DNA of 64,000 nt from Alloalcanivorax marinus (GTDB taxonomy: Bacteria; Pseudomonadota; Gammaproteobacteria; Pseudomonadales; Alcanivoracaceae), in assembly GCF_016785095.1 (NCBI RefSeq), contig NZ_JAEKJB010000002.1, positions 186,001 through 250,000 on the forward strand, given 5' to 3'. The notes under the pieces are model-generated. The model was not told the origin of the DNA. It ran no database searches and saw only the letters and a list, made by a program, of their open reading frames with translations. Below, piece after piece: positions 2,862-64,000 of the stretch. The position numbers were made by a program, and so were the translations under genes. Numbering within the stretch: position 1 is the stretch's first letter; each line of letters starts with the position of its first letter.

Positions 2862-2970
2862 GCGGAGCGGCGTGGCCCCCTTTCCGGGACCCTGTTTGAC
2901 AGGATGTCAAACCGGGAGCCCCCAGGGACGGGTTCACGGCGTTCCCGGAAAGGGGGCCACGCCGCTCCGC
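2862..2970. repeat. 109-nt perfect hairpin element, copy 1
   Basis: Two 28-nt arms (2862-2889 and 2943-2970) are perfectly complementary and flank a 53-nt loop. The loop holds a second perfect stem, TTTGACA GGA TGTCAAA. A second copy lies at 11093-11201 with the same arm and loop lengths. The inner arm part CCTTTCCGGGA and most of the loop are identical between copies, but the outer arm part differs in sequence while pairing is kept. Short flanks are also shared (CGGAGCG on the left, TAGAGA on the right). It sits between two convergent genes. I read it as a dispersed structured element; whether it acts as RNA, as DNA or as a small transposable element is not visible. Confidence 0.85.
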
Positions 2971-3007
2971 GCCCCGGATAGAGAACCCAACCCGGAATTC
3001 GCCACGA

Positions 3008-3640
3008 TCACGGCTCGAACGCCCGAAACTCGGCCAGCGCCCGCTTGCTCAGCCGCAACAGCGCCGTGGTGTCCGCCTCCCGGCTGGCCGCCTCGATGCG
3101 GATGAAGCGGTCGCCGTCCACGGTCAGCAGCAGGGTTTCGTAAAGAGGCCGGCGGTTTGGCCGATTGATCAGGTAGGCGCCGCTGGCGGTGACATGCCCC
3201 TCCAGGTCGAACAGCCGTTCCCGCACCACGCGTAACGACAGATCGTCGCTGTTGTAGACCCGATTGACGCGTTGCTGGCGCAACTGGCCGTAATGTCCGG
3301 AGACAAGGCGGGTGGCGTCCAGATCCTGCCAGCCTTCGGGCAGGCCATAGAGGGTCAGGGTGAGGCGCCGGTTCGGATCGCCGTACACCCAGCGGCGCCA
3401 GCCCTGGTCGTCGTTGCTGATCTCACCGTCGCGGTCCAGGCCGGCGAGGCGCGGCGGTGCCTGGGCCGCCGCCAGCCAGACGGGCATCGCCGCCGGCGCC
3501 GGAGGAGTGCGGTCCACGGCGTCGCGGGCGCGCAATTCGGGTATGGTGGCGGTAGGTGGCGGGCTGGCGCAGCCGCCAGCCAGTACAACAATCAATAATG
3601 CCGGCAGGATCTGGACACCCCGGAGATACATGAACACCAT
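3008..3640 (-). CDS. Putative outer-membrane lipoprotein, function unknown
   Basis: A 210-aa product with a type II signal peptide: a hydrophobic stretch (ILPALLIVVLAGGC) ends in the lipobox LAGGC with Cys24, followed by Ser, which by the +2 rule favours the outer membrane. After a Pro/Ala-rich linker the mature domain is mixed and soluble, with motifs such as EGWQDLDATRLVSGHYGQLR. I do not recognise the family. The second in-frame ATG (at 3631) has AGGATGG upstream and is an equally likely start, shortening the protein by three residues. It is transcribed divergently from the hybrid histidine kinase gene, about 90 bp away. Confidence 0.7.
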   Translation of the reverse strand: MVFMYLRGVQILPALLIVVLAGGCASPPPTATIPELRARDAVDRTPPAPAAMPVWLAAAQAPPRLAGLDRDGEISNDDQGWRRWVYGDPNRRLTLTLYGLPEGWQDLDATRLVSGHYGQLRQQRVNRVYNSDDLSLRVVRERLFDLEGHVTASGAYLINRPNRRPLYETLLLTVDGDRFIRIEAASREADTTALLRLSKRALAEFRAFEP

Positions 3641-56464: not shown

Positions 56465-56532
56465 TCCCGCGATCGGCCCTTGCGAGCCCGACGTGCCGGT
56501 TCTACTCTCGACCGTGTGATCTGGAGATCTGT

Positions 56533-56835
56533 ATGCGTTTGAGCGAAGAGCAACGGCAGCGAATTCAACAACTCGTGCAGGCGCACCTGGGCGGCGGCGT
56601 CGCTGTGTCGGTGTTTGGTTCGCGGGTGGATGATCGCCGTAGAGGGGGCGATCTGGATCTCTTCATCGAAGCCGACCGCACCGTATCTTTATTGCGGCGA
56701 GCCGCCCTTAAAATGGCATTGGAAGAGTCGTTGCGCTTGCCCGTGGACCTGGTTATCACGGAAGCCGGGAAGCCGTTGAGCTCGTTTCAGTCGCTGGCCA
56801 AGGCCCGCGCCAGACCCTTGCTGGAGGCTTCCTGA
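56533..56835 (+). CDS. mntA: MntA-like nucleotidyltransferase antitoxin
   Basis: A 100-aa minimal nucleotidyltransferase with the motif GSRVDDRRRGGDLDLFIE (Gly29-Ser30, Asp40, Asp42) and a third acidic residue likely in LPVDLVI. Family knowledge: MntA AMPylates the partner HepT toxin at the RX4HXY motif and neutralises it. It stands 2 bp before the HEPN gene. Start ATG at 56533. Confidence 0.85.
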   Translation: MRLSEEQRQRIQQLVQAHLGGGVAVSVFGSRVDDRRRGGDLDLFIEADRTVSLLRRAALKMALEESLRLPVDLVITEAGKPLSSFQSLAKARARPLLEAS

Positions 56836-56837
56836 TC

Positions 56838-57359
56838 ATGAACGTCCTTGACGAAGAGCGGCGCCATCTATCCCACCTGTTGGAAGCGCTGCAACGTTGC
56901 GCCTATTTTCTTGATTACTCAGAGCGCAAGATGGCCTGGCCCCTGCTCGGGGCTGACCTGGCGGCGAAGCGTAAGGATACCGAGTTGTTCGAAACGTTGG
57001 CGGCCATCAATGAGCGCTTTGCCAAGCTCCAGGATACCTTGGCGGTGGCCATGCGACACACGGCTCTATTGATGAGCGAAGAGTCGGACAGTTTCCTTAA
57101 GGTGCTGTCGTTTTTCGAAAAGCTGGGCGTGCTGGAGTCCTCGGAGGAATGGCAACAGAGCCGCATGGCGCGGAATATCGCAGCCCACGACTACGAAACC
57201 AATTACGAAGCCATCGCCGAGCATTTCAATACCCTGGAATCACTGAGTGGCATGTTATTCCGAACCGCCCGTAATCTTGTCGCGCGGGCCGAGGCGGATT
57301 TGGGGATCCAACCCGCCACCGGCGACTTCACCCGGGAGTTCGAGCGCCTTTTTGATTAA
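56838..57359 (+). CDS. hepT: HEPN-domain RNase toxin (HepT-like)
   Basis: A 173-aa helical protein. It carries the HEPN RNase motif R-x4-H-x-Y as RNIAAHDY (Arg112, His117, Tyr119). Canonical HepT is about 130-145 aa; this one has an extended C-terminus (LGIQPATGDFTREFERLFD). Spacing of 2 bp to mntA implies coupled translation. The Tyr119 would be the AMPylation site. Confidence 0.85.
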   Translation: MNVLDEERRHLSHLLEALQRCAYFLDYSERKMAWPLLGADLAAKRKDTELFETLAAINERFAKLQDTLAVAMRHTALLMSEESDSFLKVLSFFEKLGVLESSEEWQQSRMARNIAAHDYETNYEAIAEHFNTLESLSGMLFRTARNLVARAEADLGIQPATGDFTREFERLFD

Positions 57360-59396: not shown

Positions 59397-60743
59397 TCAT
59401 CCGCGATTCCGCCGCCTCCCGAACAACACCAGAGCGAGCAGCGCAAGCAAACCGGTGGAACCACCGCCACCACCACCGCCGCCGCCATCCCCGGGCGCGT
59501 CTTCCACGCTCAGGGTGCGTGCCCGCAGCGTGGAAGGGCCACCATCCTCCTGGGCGAACCACACCACCGTGGCGGTGCCATCGCCGAGCACCACCTCGGT
59601 GTTCAGGGAATGATCCACCGCTTCCGGAATGGTGGAGGTCGCCACCACCGCCGCGCCGTCGTCCAGGGGCGCGCCATCGCGGAACGCCATCACCCGGCTT
59701 TCGCCGCCGTTTTCGTCGGGCAGGGCCTGGCTCCAGCCCACCACCACCAGGCCGTCGCCGTCGGAGGCCAGGGACGGCCCGCCGGTATCCAGGCCGCCGG
59801 TTGGCACCGCCAGCGTCTCGCCGGGGGTGCCGTCGGCGGCCCAGTGCCGGCCCTGCATGGTCAGGGTTTTGACATGGTCCGGCCACACCTCCTGGGACCA
59901 CATCGCCAGGAAGCCGCCGTCCTCATCGGCGGCCAGGGCCGGCTGCCTCTGGTCCAGGCTGAGGCCCGCTTCGCTACCATCATCCAGGCGGAACGGCTCG
60001 GCCTCCAAAGCGGTACCGTTGAGATTGAATCGGCGCCCCAGAACCACATCGCCGCCGGCCGACGAAACATACGCGGACCAGGCCGCCATCAGGGTATCGC
60101 CTTGCAGCGCCAGGGCCGGGGCTCCGTTCTGCGCCTCGCCGAGAACGAAGAAGTCGCCCATCGCCGTGCCGTCCGCGTTGAACGCCAGCGCCCGGTATTC
60201 CGGCGCCGCGTCTTCGTGGTACCAGGCCAGCAGGAAGCGGCCGTCCGCGTCCATGGTGACGGCGGGCAGGCATTGGTCGCCACTGCCGGCGTTCACGTAA
60301 TTCTGCTCGTCGGTCAGCGAGCCGTCCCCGGCGATCCGCGAATAGGACACAGCAATACAGTCGTCGTTCAGCGCGAGGGACCAGGCCGCCACCAGATCGC
60401 CGTCGTCGTCGGCGGCCAGAGCCGGGTCGCGCACGTCGATGGAGGAGGCGTTGCCCGCGTCCAACGACATCACATCGCCGAGCAGGTCGCCGTCGGCCTC
60501 AAAGCGCCCCAGTTTGATGATCTCGTGGTCTTCGTCATCGGCCTCGTACCACAGCACCGCGAAGCGACCGCCTGGCAGGGCCGCCACCTCGAAGTCCTCG
60601 ATCTGGTAGCCCTCCGGCGCGGCGTACAAATCCACCGTTGGAGCGGCGTCGTCGAGCAGCGAAGCGGCGCCCACCGGCGCGCACAAAACGGCGGAGCACA
60701 CCGCCACGGCCAGCGGCGTGCGCTGGAAATTCAAGTAAGACAC
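59397..60743 (-). CDS. Secreted repeat protein with GlyGly-CTERM tail, paralogue 1
   Basis: A 448-aa exported protein: a Sec signal peptide (residues 1-25, TPLAVAVCSAVLCAPVGA), six or seven imperfect blades of the form DPALAADDDGDLVAAWSLALND, and a C-terminal sorting signal. The tail has a Gly-run, a hydrophobic helix STGLLALLALVLFG, and a basic end RRRNRG, which is the GlyGly-CTERM (rhombosortase substrate) layout. Start is GTG at 60743 (no ATG fits); the product begins SYLNFQRTP. It is the downstream-most of three tandem paralogues on this strand. Confidence 0.85.
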   Translation of the reverse strand: MSYLNFQRTPLAVAVCSAVLCAPVGAASLLDDAAPTVDLYAAPEGYQIEDFEVAALPGGRFAVLWYEADDEDHEIIKLGRFEADGDLLGDVMSLDAGNASSIDVRDPALAADDDGDLVAAWSLALNDDCIAVSYSRIAGDGSLTDEQNYVNAGSGDQCLPAVTMDADGRFLLAWYHEDAAPEYRALAFNADGTAMGDFFVLGEAQNGAPALALQGDTLMAAWSAYVSSAGGDVVLGRRFNLNGTALEAEPFRLDDGSEAGLSLDQRQPALAADEDGGFLAMWSQEVWPDHVKTLTMQGRHWAADGTPGETLAVPTGGLDTGGPSLASDGDGLVVVGWSQALPDENGGESRVMAFRDGAPLDDGAAVVATSTIPEAVDHSLNTEVVLGDGTATVVWFAQEDGGPSTLRARTLSVEDAPGDGGGGGGGGGSTGLLALLALVLFGRRRNRG

Positions 60744-60915
60744 GGAAATTCACCCCCGGAGTAAGGTTGCAAAAACACGCTTACTCTAGAACCGCCCCCG
60801 CGCCGGCAGTACCCGACAAATGTCGGGTGCATTGTTACAGGACATCCTGCGGATACCGCAAGCCATGCTTTGTCGTCCGTGAACGGCGAGTAGGATGAAA
60901 AGGTATATCCTGGAA

Positions 60916-60935
60916 TTGTTGTCAATTGACAACAA
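60916..60935. promoter_or_regulatory. Perfect 20-bp palindrome, likely operator of the HicA-like/HTH cassette
   Basis: TTGTTGTCAATTGACAACAA is fully self-complementary. It lies 35 bp before the GTG of the first cassette gene and 170 bp from the divergent secreted-protein gene. Such palindromes are typical binding sites for autoregulating toxin-antitoxin repressors; the HTH protein encoded downstream is the obvious candidate. Confidence 0.75.
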
Positions 60936-60969
60936 AAGGGGAGAGAGCGATCCTTTGCAAGGAGGCGAT

Positions 60970-61242
60970 GTGAGCCGGAAAAAGCACCCCAAGCGTGTAT
61001 TGGAGCTTTCTGTTCGTTACGCGGAGCAGCATGGATGGCGTGTCAGGCCCACGGGAAAGAGCGCCCATGCCTGGGGCATTCTTGAATGTCCGAATAACGA
61101 TGCCGGCTGCCGATGCGGAAGATTTTGCCGTGTCAGTATTTGGTCGACGCCGGCTAATCCGGAAGCGCATGCCCGGGCTTTACGCAGGGCCGTGGATGGT
61201 TGTCTGTACAGGCGGTCAGGAGCAGATGATGACGATGTATGA
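60970..61242 (+). CDS. HicA-like small protein, predicted toxin or RNA-binding partner
   Basis: A 90-aa basic protein, KKHPKRVLELSVRYAEQHGWRV at the start, then GKSAHAWGILECPNNDAGCRCGRFCRVSIWSTPANPEAHARAL. The alpha-beta-beta-beta-alpha order and the SAHAWG motif resemble the HicA mRNA-interferase fold (G-x-H catalytic turn), with an added Cys cluster (CPNNDAGCRCGRFC) that could bind metal. GTG at 60970 follows the strong AAGGAGG site; an in-frame ATG at 60895 would place the operator inside the gene. It overlaps the HTH gene by 14 bp. The call is by fold resemblance only. Confidence 0.6.
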   Translation: MSRKKHPKRVLELSVRYAEQHGWRVRPTGKSAHAWGILECPNNDAGCRCGRFCRVSIWSTPANPEAHARALRRAVDGCLYRRSGADDDDV

Positions 61243-61843
61243 GTTTCAGGTGCATTTCGAGTTGCCATTGGAGCAGCCGGATTCCGAACAATGGCTGGAT
61301 GCTCTCTTCGAAGCGGGATGCGACGATGCGATCGTGGGCTTGGCTCGGCCCGGCTATTTATCGTTGGATTTCAGCCGCGAAGGTGAGCAAGCCATGACGG
61401 TCGTTCATTCCGCCGTGCGGGATGTACAAACCGCGATCCCGGGGGCGCATCCACAATCCGTCGGCCCTGATCTGCTCAACCTGTCAGGCATCGCCGAGTG
61501 GTTATCAGACAATCGCATTGCCATCACGCGACAAGCAATGCGCAAGTATGCGTCGGGGGAGTTGCGCCGCTCTCGTTCACGCTTTCCGGCGCCGAGAGTC
61601 TTTGATTCCGTGCCCCTATGGCATGCCCATGATGTTCTGGCATGGATGGAACAGAACGGAAAATTAGTGAAGGCCGATCAAGCGGCGGTGAAAACGATGC
61701 TCGATCTTACCGGGGTCAGTAAAGCCATCAATGCAGCTGCGGAATTCCTGAGATTGCGGGCAGGAGATCCGGTGTTGGCGGAGCAGGCCTGGAACATCAT
61801 GGAAATTCAGACGGCGTTACGGGCTCATTCGGCGGAAGGTTGA
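61229..61843 (+). CDS. HTH DNA-binding protein, predicted antitoxin/regulator of the cassette
   Basis: A 204-aa protein. Residues 1-90 are an alpha/beta domain starting MYEFQVHFELPLEQPDSEQW, with FEAGCDDAIVGLARPGYLSLDFSREGEQAM. The middle holds an excisionase-like HTH, LSGIAEWLSDNRIAITRQAMRKYASGEL, then FPAPRVFDSVPLWHAHDVLAWM, the winged part. A C-terminal helix follows. The pattern is that of antitoxin-like HTH proteins encoded next to HicA-like proteins in several phyla, as I recall; no database check was made. Start codons at 61226, 61229 and 61235 are possible; 61229 gives 6-bp spacing to AGGAG. Confidence 0.6.
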   Translation: MTMYEFQVHFELPLEQPDSEQWLDALFEAGCDDAIVGLARPGYLSLDFSREGEQAMTVVHSAVRDVQTAIPGAHPQSVGPDLLNLSGIAEWLSDNRIAITRQAMRKYASGELRRSRSRFPAPRVFDSVPLWHAHDVLAWMEQNGKLVKADQAAVKTMLDLTGVSKAINAAAEFLRLRAGDPVLAEQAWNIMEIQTALRAHSAEG

Positions 61844-61974: not shown

Positions 61975-63363
61975 CTACCGGCGGGTCCGCCGCCCCGCCA
62001 TCAGCAACATCAGGCCAAACATCCCGAGGAAGTTAGCGCCGCCTCCACCGCCACCGCCACCGCCCGCTGCCGGATTCGAAGCGGCCTCCGGCAGCGTCAG
62101 CGAGCGTGCCCGGATGCTGTACTCCAGATCGGCGTTCTGTTCGTACCATACGGCGGTGGCGGTGCGGCCGTTAAGCACCACCTCCGTGTTCGGCGAGTAA
62201 AAATAATCCCCCTGGGTATAGGACCCGACGGTAACGGCGTCATCGCCCAGGCGTTGACCGTTCTGGAAAGCCGTGACCCGGCTGAATCCATCGGCGTGGT
62301 CGAGACGTGCGCTCCAGCCCGCGAGGATCAAGCCTTGCTCATTGGTGGCCAGTGAAGGGGCAACCGCGTTGCCGCCCAGGGTTTCCATACCATCGCCGCC
62401 TATATTGTCATCGCTGAACACGAGCTCCGCGCGGGCGGTACCGTCGGCGGCCCAGCGCTGGCCGTGCTGGCTGTCCACGAGCTCATCGTTGAGGGCTCGC
62501 GTCTGGTGCCACATGCCCAGGAATCCGCCGGCGGGGTCCTGAACAAGTACCGGTGAGGTTTGAATCACGGCGTGGTCCGGGGCGCCGTTATCCAGGCGGA
62601 AATTCGCGTTGCCCAGGGCGGTGCCGTTCTGATTGTAACGGCGTGCCATTACCGGGTAGTCCGGCCCGACATCCGCGGTCCAGGCCACAGCCAGGGTGTC
62701 GTCCCGCAAGGCGAGAGCTAACCCTGGAAAGATGGCGAGCGCTGGCGCCACCTCGAAGGACGGGGCGATGGTGGAGCCGTCGGCATTGAACGTCTGGACC
62801 ACGTACGCCGGAGAGTTGGTGGCTGATTCATGGCGCCAGCCGAATGCGTAGCGACCATCGTCGTCCATTGTGACCCGAACCTGGCAGTCACTTCCGGAGC
62901 CGGCATCATGGGACAGGGACTGTGGACTTGCGATGGTGTCGTCGGCGTCGACGCGAGTGTAGCCCAGAGTGCCGCAGCCGCCATCGTTGAAATCCCAGGC
63001 CACGACAAGGTCGCCGTCGTTGTCGGCGGCCACCACCGGGTTGTTTGGACCGCCGCTAGAGGACGGAGAACCGGACAACAGTTCCAGGACGTCGCCCTCG
63101 GCGTTGCCGTCGGCGTCAAAGCGAGCAAGCCGCACGTGGTAAAGGCTCGTGTCGCTGTCGTACTCGGACCAGACCAGCGCGAACAGGCCGTCGGGCAGGC
63201 CGGCCACGTCGAAGCCATTAATGCTGATGGCCTCGGTCGGGGCGTACAGCTCCACCATCGGCGAGGCGTCGTCGAGCAAGGAAGCGGCGCCTGCGGGCGT
63301 GGACAAAACGGCGGCGCCCACCGCCAGGGCCAGCGGCGTGCGTGAAAACACGGGCAGTGACAT
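61975..63363 (-). CDS. Secreted repeat protein with GlyGly-CTERM tail, paralogue 2
   Basis: A 462-aa paralogue of the 59397-60743 product. Signal peptide TPLALAVGAAVLSTPAGA, then the shared segment ASLLDDASPMVELYAPTEAI and repeated blades (NPVVAADNDGDLVVAWDFND, RVTMDDDGRYAFGWRHES). The C-terminus has a Gly-run, NFLGMFGLMLLMAG, and RRTRR. Start ATG at 63363 (MSLPVFSRTP), chosen over an in-frame extension to 63444 that lacks similarity. The TAG stop lies 131 bp after the HTH gene, tail to tail. Confidence 0.85.
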   Translation of the reverse strand: MSLPVFSRTPLALAVGAAVLSTPAGAASLLDDASPMVELYAPTEAISINGFDVAGLPDGLFALVWSEYDSDTSLYHVRLARFDADGNAEGDVLELLSGSPSSSGGPNNPVVAADNDGDLVVAWDFNDGGCGTLGYTRVDADDTIASPQSLSHDAGSGSDCQVRVTMDDDGRYAFGWRHESATNSPAYVVQTFNADGSTIAPSFEVAPALAIFPGLALALRDDTLAVAWTADVGPDYPVMARRYNQNGTALGNANFRLDNGAPDHAVIQTSPVLVQDPAGGFLGMWHQTRALNDELVDSQHGQRWAADGTARAELVFSDDNIGGDGMETLGGNAVAPSLATNEQGLILAGWSARLDHADGFSRVTAFQNGQRLGDDAVTVGSYTQGDYFYSPNTEVVLNGRTATAVWYEQNADLEYSIRARSLTLPEAASNPAAGGGGGGGGGANFLGMFGLMLLMAGRRTRR

Positions 63364-63466
63364 GAGAATCCCCCTCAGGATCAGTGTTGTTATGAGCGGG
63401 GGATGGTGGCAATAAATTGCACAGGTAGCGGTTAACCGGCGCACGGTTTTGGGGCGCCTTGGTGAG

Positions 63467-63570: not shown

Positions 63571-64000
63571 TTACCGTCGAACGCGGCGGCGTAGGGCAAG
63601 CAGGCCCAGGCCGAGCAGGCTGAGCAGGCCGGTGGTGCCGCCACCGCCGCCACCGCCGGAGCCGCCGTCATCGGAGCCGCCGTCGTCACCGCCGCCACCT
63701 TGGGCGTCGGACACATTCAGCGAACGGGCTTCCAGGGTCTGCCCGTCGGCGCCGTACCAGGCCACCAGGGCGGCGGTGCCATTGAGGGCGACGCGGGGCG
63801 CGCCGTCGGTGCCCAGAGCGGCCAGGTCGGCGAACTCCCAGTCCAATTCACCCAGGCGCTGGCCGTTGGCGTCGAAGGCGATGGCCCCGGCCTCGGGTGC
63901 CTGGCCGGCGGGCTGGTAGCTCCATACCGCCACCATCTGGCCGGCCGCGTTGGTGGCCACGCCGGGCTTGCTGAAACCTTCCTCCGCCTCGGCGGCCAGC
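63571..64000 (-). CDS. Secreted repeat protein with GlyGly-CTERM tail, paralogue 3 (5' end beyond window)
   Basis: The last 142 codons of a third paralogue; the frame is open to the window edge. The repeat blade GVATNAAGQMVAVWSYQPAG is followed by VALNGTAALVAWYGADGQTLEARSLNVSDA, a long Gly/Asp/Ser linker, the hydrophobic stretch TTGLLSLLGLGLLAL and RRRVRR. The C-terminal domain matches those of paralogues 1 and 2. Confidence 0.85.
   Translation of the reverse strand, partial: LAAEAEEGFSKPGVATNAAGQMVAVWSYQPAGQAPEAGAIAFDANGQRLGELDWEFADLAALGTDGAPRVALNGTAALVAWYGADGQTLEARSLNVSDAQGGGGDDGGSDDGGSGGGGGGGTTGLLSLLGLGLLALRRRVRR

Follow-up and report, generated by a model that had tools for sequence, protein, structure and literature searches.

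Known HicA-type systems and the gene pair of Alloalcanivorax marinus

HicA and HicB have been reported as a strictly occurring, unique pair of toxin and antitoxin (Makarova 2009, PMC2701414), with an alpha-beta-beta-beta-alpha order of elements given for the HicA fold (PMC10865869). Here, we describe a pair of overlapping genes, A and B, that lies behind a perfect 20-bp palindrome in a 64,000-nucleotide stretch of Alloalcanivorax marinus (contig NZ_JAEKJB010000002.1, positions 186,001 to 250,000; hereafter "the window", whose numbering is used throughout; Table 1). As far as the published descriptions of classical HicAB classes 3 and 4 go (Gerdes 2024), the pair as predicted here shares with them the toxin gene in first place, a palindromic operator, a helix-turn-helix (HTH) on the second protein (class 3) and an alpha-beta-beta-beta-alpha toxin with an important histidine (PMC10865869, PMC11594946). 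It differs from classical HicAB by near-invariant H67-A68, C40 and C78 residues in A, joined by a cysteine cluster in the lineage of the window, and by its partner protein, because a combination of ferredoxin-like domain and winged HTH is absent from the 14 HicA classes described in section 4 of PMC10865869; we therefore file the pair as a variant outside HicAB. The pair would work like HicAB, yet it is no HicAB member when judged by its partner. Another HicA-like toxin with antitoxin is gp91/gp90 of phage Adephagia, for which toxicity, a requirement for H31 and a DALI Z score to HicA of 5.1 have been published, but in which the genes stand in reverse order and the antitoxin, of 65 residues, is HicB-like (PMC11373665). 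We rejected it as an instance of the same pair because of this HicB-like partner and because Adephagia is absent from the phage records matched by our B-type queries (A was not used as a query).

We consider it likely that genes A and B form an autoregulated type II toxin-antitoxin module composed of a HicA-like predicted toxin and a predicted antitoxin that is not HicB. The evidence computed here comprises the pairing and overlap of the genes, the conservation and position of the operator, the covariation of its half-site with a helix of B, the asymmetric loss of A, and the predicted folds of both proteins. An earlier note on this DNA had described a fully symmetric palindrome followed by two overlapping genes, the first of them small, basic and cysteine-rich, and all of this is borne out: the palindrome is exact, the genes overlap by 17 nt as counted from the first ATG of B, and A has an isoelectric point (pI) of 9.65 and five cysteines, four of which are clustered (40, 47, 49 and 53) with the fifth at 78. 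The pI of B is 5.2 when computed from the start at 61229.

Table 1. Features of the A/B cassette and their positions in the window.
Feature	Positions	Strand	Basis and remarks
Predicted operator, perfect 20-bp palindrome TTGTTGTCAATTGACAACAA	60916-60935	.	exact; 16-bp core at 60918-60933
Probable -35 box TTGACA, within the operator	60926-60931	+	matches the -35 consensus
Ribosome-binding site AGGAGG of gene A	60960-60965	+	read from the sequence
Gene A, basic HicA-like protein of 90 aa, predicted toxin (PDC-M06A)	60970-61242	+	PADLOC, PHROG 5923, predicted fold; starts with GTG, AGGAGG just 5'
Gene B, acidic protein of 205 aa, predicted antitoxin and autorepressor (PDC-M06B)	61226-61843	+	PADLOC, PHROG 2620, model; first ATG taken as start, 61229 and 61235 possible alternatives
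N-terminal ferredoxin-like domain of B, residues 3-80	61232-61465	+	predicted element order; proposed to bind and mask A
Winged HTH of B, residues 86-143, recognition helix at about 101-108	61481-61654	+	model, covariation with operator type

The object itself is already catalogued, while its mechanism is not described as far as literature searches show. A matches PADLOC model PDC-M06A (E 4.4e-35, residues 2-84 of 90) and B matches PDC-M06B (E 6.9e-43, residues 2-178 of 205), and as adjacent, co-directional genes the two make up a complete PDC-M06 locus. PDC-M06 is a catalogued candidate phage-defence system with empty model descriptions in PADLOC, and no paper naming it was found in the literature searched, with preprints on PDC systems lying beyond that search. 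Among phage protein families, the match of A is PHROG 5923, of unknown function (5.7e-18), and that of B is PHROG 2620, labelled "excisionase and transcriptional regulator" (2.7e-18), while Pfam and NCBIfam scans of A and B returned no credible family. Homologous pairs with the same gene order are present in phages SSU5 (SSU5_055/054) and Cyrano (CYRAN_51/CYRAN_50), where they are flanked by recombination genes on one side and the DNA polymerase III alpha gene on the other. These phage pairs carry a sister form of the operator, but differ from the window in lacking the cysteine cluster and in a half-site GTTGAC where the window has GTTGTC. The Cyrano pair is annotated as HicA toxin and putative antitoxin HicB and is also so named in print (PMC9928086), though the names stem from annotation and profile comparison finds no match between B-type proteins and HicB. 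The same source reports that transcription of the Cyrano copy exceeds local background 30-fold for A and 14-fold for B (PMC9928086). The cassette had been put forward as an under-described system, which needs narrowing given the PADLOC entry and the Cyrano annotation: PDC-M06, whose models both window genes match, is a catalogue entry only, and the operator, the folds and the toxin-antitoxin reading are additions of this analysis to it.

Pairing, distribution and loss of gene A

Among 193 related genomes, 24 contain B and 18 contain A, and a B lies next to each of the 19 distinct A loci. Across 398 Pseudomonadota genomes, each of the 23 strong A places (E < 1e-10) likewise adjoins B, while A is present at 23 of 27 strong B places and the other four are without an A match; a further four A matches, all weak (E 3e-4 to 6e-4), have no B next to them, and the one at L133 is a remnant with operator from a 68%-complete genome. 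On viral contigs, A precedes B in all 22 Cyrano-type loci, one of which (L269) has an in-frame stop inside A next to a full-length B, and in 23 of 32 further loci whose upstream side is covered, a sample in which at least two contigs overlap sets already counted. The spacing between A and B ranges from -14 to +21 nt in the 14 pairs that were measured and reaches +54 nt in other intact pairs with automatic starts. The genes thus form a conserved two-gene operon of small proteins, and their distribution is as patchy as is typical of type II toxin-antitoxin systems (24 of 193 and 33 of 398 genomes), including phages and plasmids. Among 72,556 plasmid records, Cyrano queries matched 221 with A and 282 with B; these carriers, more than 200 records, are mostly enterobacterial, and at least some of them are SSU5-type phage-plasmids. 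Co-occurrence of both genes elsewhere, without which the initial proposal would have fallen, is therefore widespread and tightly spaced, and we rejected an artefact because pair, spacing and operator recur across many genera.

Damage falls on A, and B outlives A repeatedly. At 16 of the 26 B loci in the related genomes, the upstream A is open and of normal length; it is damaged at six (L003, L005, L012, L018, L024 and L026), and no A is recognised at four (L009, L015, L022 and L023), with B itself truncated in L022 and L023. The broken A stands next to an open B at five of the damaged loci (L003, L005, L026, L012 and L018). At L009, an exact operator core lies ca. 44 bp before B with no A seen, an arrangement that looks as if A had dropped out. 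In the closest genome found, that of the sister strain Alloalcanivorax profundimaris, B is 97% identical and open, and a deletion of 240 bp (window positions 60898-61137) has removed the operator together with the first half of A. Such loss of A first is the pattern that a costly toxin would show.

Two side observations concern copy number and domain content. Contig C15 of the relative G003 (L348) carries two copies of the pair ca. 10 kb apart, one with an open A and the other with an internally deleted A. Viral contigs L307, L308, L309, L310, L311 and L315 (around 2950-3400) encode a B-type N-terminal domain with no HTH recognised by eye and no A match within the stretch covered; these may be antitoxin domains that stand alone and could serve as anti-toxin factors.

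Predicted operator and recognition helix of B

The palindrome TTGTTGTCAATTGACAACAA occurs once in the whole genome of 4,175,302 bases and is among the three longest perfect palindromes of the window (24, 20 and 20 bp), and its core GTTGTCANNTGACAAC has a single copy in the window, compared with none in 100 shuffles, and a single copy in the genome. Clear palindromes of this type 1 (GTTGTC..GACAAC) or of a sister type 2 (GTTGAC..GTCAAC) lie within 80 bp upstream of A at 48 of 59 loci, whose upstream regions are distinct yet related. At the same thresholds, a site was scored in none of 2215 80-bp stretches drawn at random from other parts of these loci and in only 1 of 2360 shuffled upstream regions. 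The hexamer TTGACA is exact in 40 of the 48 clear operators, in the right half of type 1 and the left half of type 2 sites; five of its six letters are already fixed by the half-site, which leaves little free information, though the T that completes it in type 1 is present in 24 of 26 cases without being required by symmetry. This -35 hexamer starts 36-53 bp before the start codon of A in 47 of the 48 operators, and a -10 match of at least 4/6 follows at 15-19 bp in 33 of them, compared with 26% in shuffles. The best -10 sequence of the window locus is poor (GATCCT, 3/6), and a promoter consensus scan of this locus found none. The palindrome or its sister form is therefore a conserved, predicted operator upstream of A that overlaps the -35 box.

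Operator type covaries with the recognition helix of B, which reads TRQAMRKY at residues 101-108 in the window. Residue 107 is lysine at 25 of 28 type 1 loci, the three exceptions being two glutamines and one alignment failure (L081, with the translation SRQNMRKL), and it is not lysine at 24 of 25 type 2 loci, where the one deviating locus, L096, carries a better-matching type 1 site farther upstream (12 of 14 at -136). Five of the 58 loci were left uncounted because their type was unclear, and the upstream window of L070 was set by hand. This covariation of half-site and helix points to B as the protein that would bind the palindrome. B is a candidate for the DNA-binding, operon-repressing antitoxin of a type II system, with a predicted HTH, a conserved operator and the covariation of that operator with the helix.

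The operator core also turned up in other settings. Several viral contigs (L144, L145, L147, L166, L171, L172, L193 and others) carry two 16-bp cores 29 bp apart, start to start. Among the listed core matches in IMG/VR, four other contigs have weak matches to the B model (E 0.002-0.006), three of which (L172, L193 and L197) fall in open frames overlapping the core site; each of these frames encodes a short HTH protein, with a double core in L172 and L193 but one core only in L197, and it is perhaps an unrelated phage regulator that reads the same site.

Predicted folds of A and B

The model of A (predicted local distance difference test score, pLDDT, 78.9) has the element order of HicA, with a helix at residues 9-20, strands at 24-27, 34-39 and 54-58, and a second helix at 64-76. 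In structural comparison with VIA-align, HicA chains match with Z scores of 3.9-4.4 over 54-60 residues and rank 1, 7 and 14 among 491 aligned structures: Burkholderia pseudomallei HicA is the top match (Z 4.4, 59 of 60 residues, root-mean-square deviation 3.4), alongside HicA3 (Z 4.2) and Escherichia coli HicA (Z 3.9). Rank 4 of the 491 is held by 1whz (Z 4.3), a structure titled hypothetical protein that we take to be of HicA type. Near-invariant residues among 33 A members include H6, G22-W23, H33, C40, T60-P61, H67-A68 and C78. The catalytic histidine that follows GW and glycine in HicA has a conserved, putatively catalytic counterpart in A, with G22 invariant and W23 and H33 kept in at least 90% of these members, and profile alignment pairs the GW...H of A with the GW...GSH of HicA. 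In hhalign, 48 A sequences scored 22.3, 22.3 and 20.3 (probability 17, 19 and 10%) against three local HicA sets, while the next-best of 200 column shuffles, run for the first two sets only, reached 20.7 and 16.1, setting aside one shuffle per set whose score of more than 130, over 5-8 columns, we regard as an artefact. An alignment of just 15 A sequences had given probabilities of 46, 39 and 2%, so more sequences did not strengthen the best match, and profile alignment is no more than suggestive of HicA likeness. Hits to RuBisCO_small among A members (3 of 33 in one set and 8 of 19 in the other, best 0.0013) were put down to chance. Taken together, we lean slightly towards A being a HicA-type ribonuclease. 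The earlier note's call of a HicA-like first protein thus stands at the level of predicted element order and of the GW...H motif, while a family-level sequence match is lacking.

The cysteine cluster, a C-x6-C-R-C-G-x-F-C motif in the lineage of the window, had been thought to set the system apart, but it is a trait of this lineage that is absent from the SSU5/Cyrano type and from the L025, L100, L102 and L103 subfamilies. Because it is missing from whole subfamilies, the cluster does not define the system. The two proteins also tend to opposite charge, with a pI above 7 for A at 52 of 58 loci and below 7 for B at 57 of 58.

The model of B (pLDDT 86.5) consists of a ferredoxin-like domain, a winged HTH and C-terminal helices. 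Its N-terminal domain, with a predicted beta-alpha-beta-beta-alpha-beta order and a pI of 4.2, matches generic ferredoxin-like folds (Z ca. 7). B gave no signal of HicB, the partner with a partial RNase H fold: hhalign against six local HicB-type proteins gave a probability of 0.4%, and the 22 Pfam families to which 20 B members gave matches include no HicB. Structural comparison likewise placed no HicB among the top rows, though fold comparison alone excludes nothing. A predicted alpha/beta plus HTH partner unlike HicB, as anticipated from the sequence, is thus what we find, and prediction of both structures gives A the element order of HicA and B a ferredoxin-like domain, with the HicA matches of A being weak and tied with unrelated folds.

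Genomic setting

The flanking genes at 59397-60743 and 61975-63444 are paralogues (43% identical) on the minus strand, and the A/B pair sits between them on the opposite strand. At 56.1%, the GC content of 60898-61843 is lower than that of the window (66.4%) and of the two paralogues (69.2% and 65.0%), in agreement with what had been noticed at the outset, and ca. 4% of equal-sized windows reach a GC content as low. In the relative G003 (contig C35), two matches to the flanking paralogue family are ca. 380 bp apart; the pair was probably inserted between tandem paralogues whose relatives stand at this distance there.

By eye, the minus-strand genes at 59397-60743, 61975-63444 and 63571-63999 encode proteins in tandem that look secreted, whose C-termini combine a glycine-rich stretch with a hydrophobic segment and an arginine-rich tail in the manner of a sorting signal; a Pfam scan of the protein of 59397-60743, the only one of these paralogues scanned, found no family. 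Between this gene and the cassette lies a second near-palindrome, ACCCGACAAATGTCGGGT (60811-60828), with one copy in the window and retained in the sister strain. On the plus strand at 56530-57359, ca. 3.5 kb from the pair and likewise in a GC dip, a nucleotidyltransferase gene (Polbeta 2.5e-7) is directly followed by a gene for a 173-aa protein that is HEPN-like by eye and has no Pfam match, and the two are a probable MNT/HEPN toxin-antitoxin pair.

Weighing the explanations

Several of our results weigh against a HicA-like toxin-antitoxin module with a conserved operator. The HicA structural matches of A are tied with aminotransferase domains, Foldseek found no match in the PDB at E <= 0.001 for A or B, and Pfam HicA_toxin (PF07927) matches 1 of 33 A members (E 0.16) and none of a second set of 19 including the window, whose A matches no Pfam family at all. 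The operator thresholds were chosen after the sites had been seen, 11 of 59 loci fall below them, and the upstream regions of L020, L021, L025 and L093 show nothing recognisable, though L093 nonetheless has a helix with R-K. Nor is the exact 16-mer core specific to the pair: because 1 of at least 120 IMG/VR contigs with the core carries it, the site alone is not diagnostic. The covariation may come down to as few as one or two switches, on a tree with weak support; the tree of A requires two changes of operator type while leaving room for one only, and phylogeny could explain much of the pattern. Loss of A with retention of B is expected for any costly A, and in A. profundimaris B may be silent because its promoter went with the same deletion. 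On Cyrano, finally, the toxin gene is transcribed more than B (PMC9928086).

Three other explanations compete with this toxin-antitoxin module. It is possible, though we would put it below an even chance, that the pair is a dedicated anti-phage system, with A as effector and B as phage-triggered sensor or regulator, and no addiction module. Both proteins match PADLOC candidate models, at other loci some proteins encoded near the pair match GajB, PDC-M07, RTasHel or mad models, and a role in phage defence has been argued for HicA-domain toxin-antitoxin pairs (Gerdes 2024, PMC10865869). However, in a scan of 150 of 152 neighbour proteins from 20 loci (simple open reading frame rule), each defence family matches one to five proteins (best 25 of 83 families), the Pfam families found most often are unremarkable (ABC transporter, methyltransferase, GST, GMP synthase; best 25 of 215), temperate phage-plasmids themselves carry the pair, and no published test was found in the literature searched. 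This explanation also overlaps with the toxin-antitoxin reading, since a toxin-antitoxin pair may act in defence.

That A is a zinc-finger-like protein unrelated to HicA, with a convergent resemblance to it, seems unlikely to us: the cysteine cluster, the weak Z scores and the missing Pfam HicA call would fit, but SSU5/Cyrano- and L100/L102/L103-type members do without the cluster while mostly keeping GW, H33, C40, TP, HA and C78, and the element order of the A model is that of HicA. We find it more doubtful still that the genes are a phage-derived regulatory pair in which B is an AlpA/excisionase-like regulator and A a non-toxic accessory nucleic-acid-binding protein. Its appeal lies in the PHROG 2620 match of B, the "AlpA-like" annotation in SSU5, weak matches of B members to Phage_AlpA (2 of 20) and HTH_17 (2 of 20), and a tyrosine integrase that ends close before A in L069 and lies ca. 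2 kb off on pAQ7, yet no integrase is among the 25 commonest of the 215 neighbour Pfam families, the palindrome sits at a narrow distance in the promoter region of A, and A is lost while B is kept.

Proposed mechanism and significance

Returning to the toxin-antitoxin module, it is from the data above that we infer toxicity, ribonuclease activity, neutralisation by the N-terminal domain of B, repression and a biological role. A, a small basic protein predicted to resemble HicA and double-stranded RNA-binding domains (dsRBD), would most likely inhibit growth by cleaving or binding RNA, with His33 as key residue. The acidic, two-domain B would probably bind and mask A with its ferredoxin-like N-terminal domain, while its winged HTH may bind the palindrome as a dimer, cover the embedded -35 box and so repress the operon. 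Loss or titration of B upon plasmid loss or phage takeover would then release A and stop growth. The module seems to move among chromosomes, plasmids and phage-plasmids, with decaying copies tending to lose A first. Of the toxin-antitoxin or defence module behind a palindrome that the earlier note had proposed, the toxin-antitoxin-like two-gene layout and the conservation of the operator hold up, while the functions remain predicted.

The fullest version of this reading is one that we regard as evenly poised: a HicA-like ribonuclease toxin held by an unrelated antitoxin made of a ferredoxin-like domain and a winged HTH, in a family outside the described HicAB classes that is common to chromosomes and SSU5-type phage-plasmids and has two operator dialects read by two helix types. 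The two dialects predict that swapping two residues of the B helix changes the operator that is read. If true, the strict pairing of HicA and HicB as it was reported (PMC2701414) would have an exception in a HicA-like toxin whose antitoxin is not HicB, and the anonymous PDC-M06 entry would become a system with a stated mechanism and a defined operator site.
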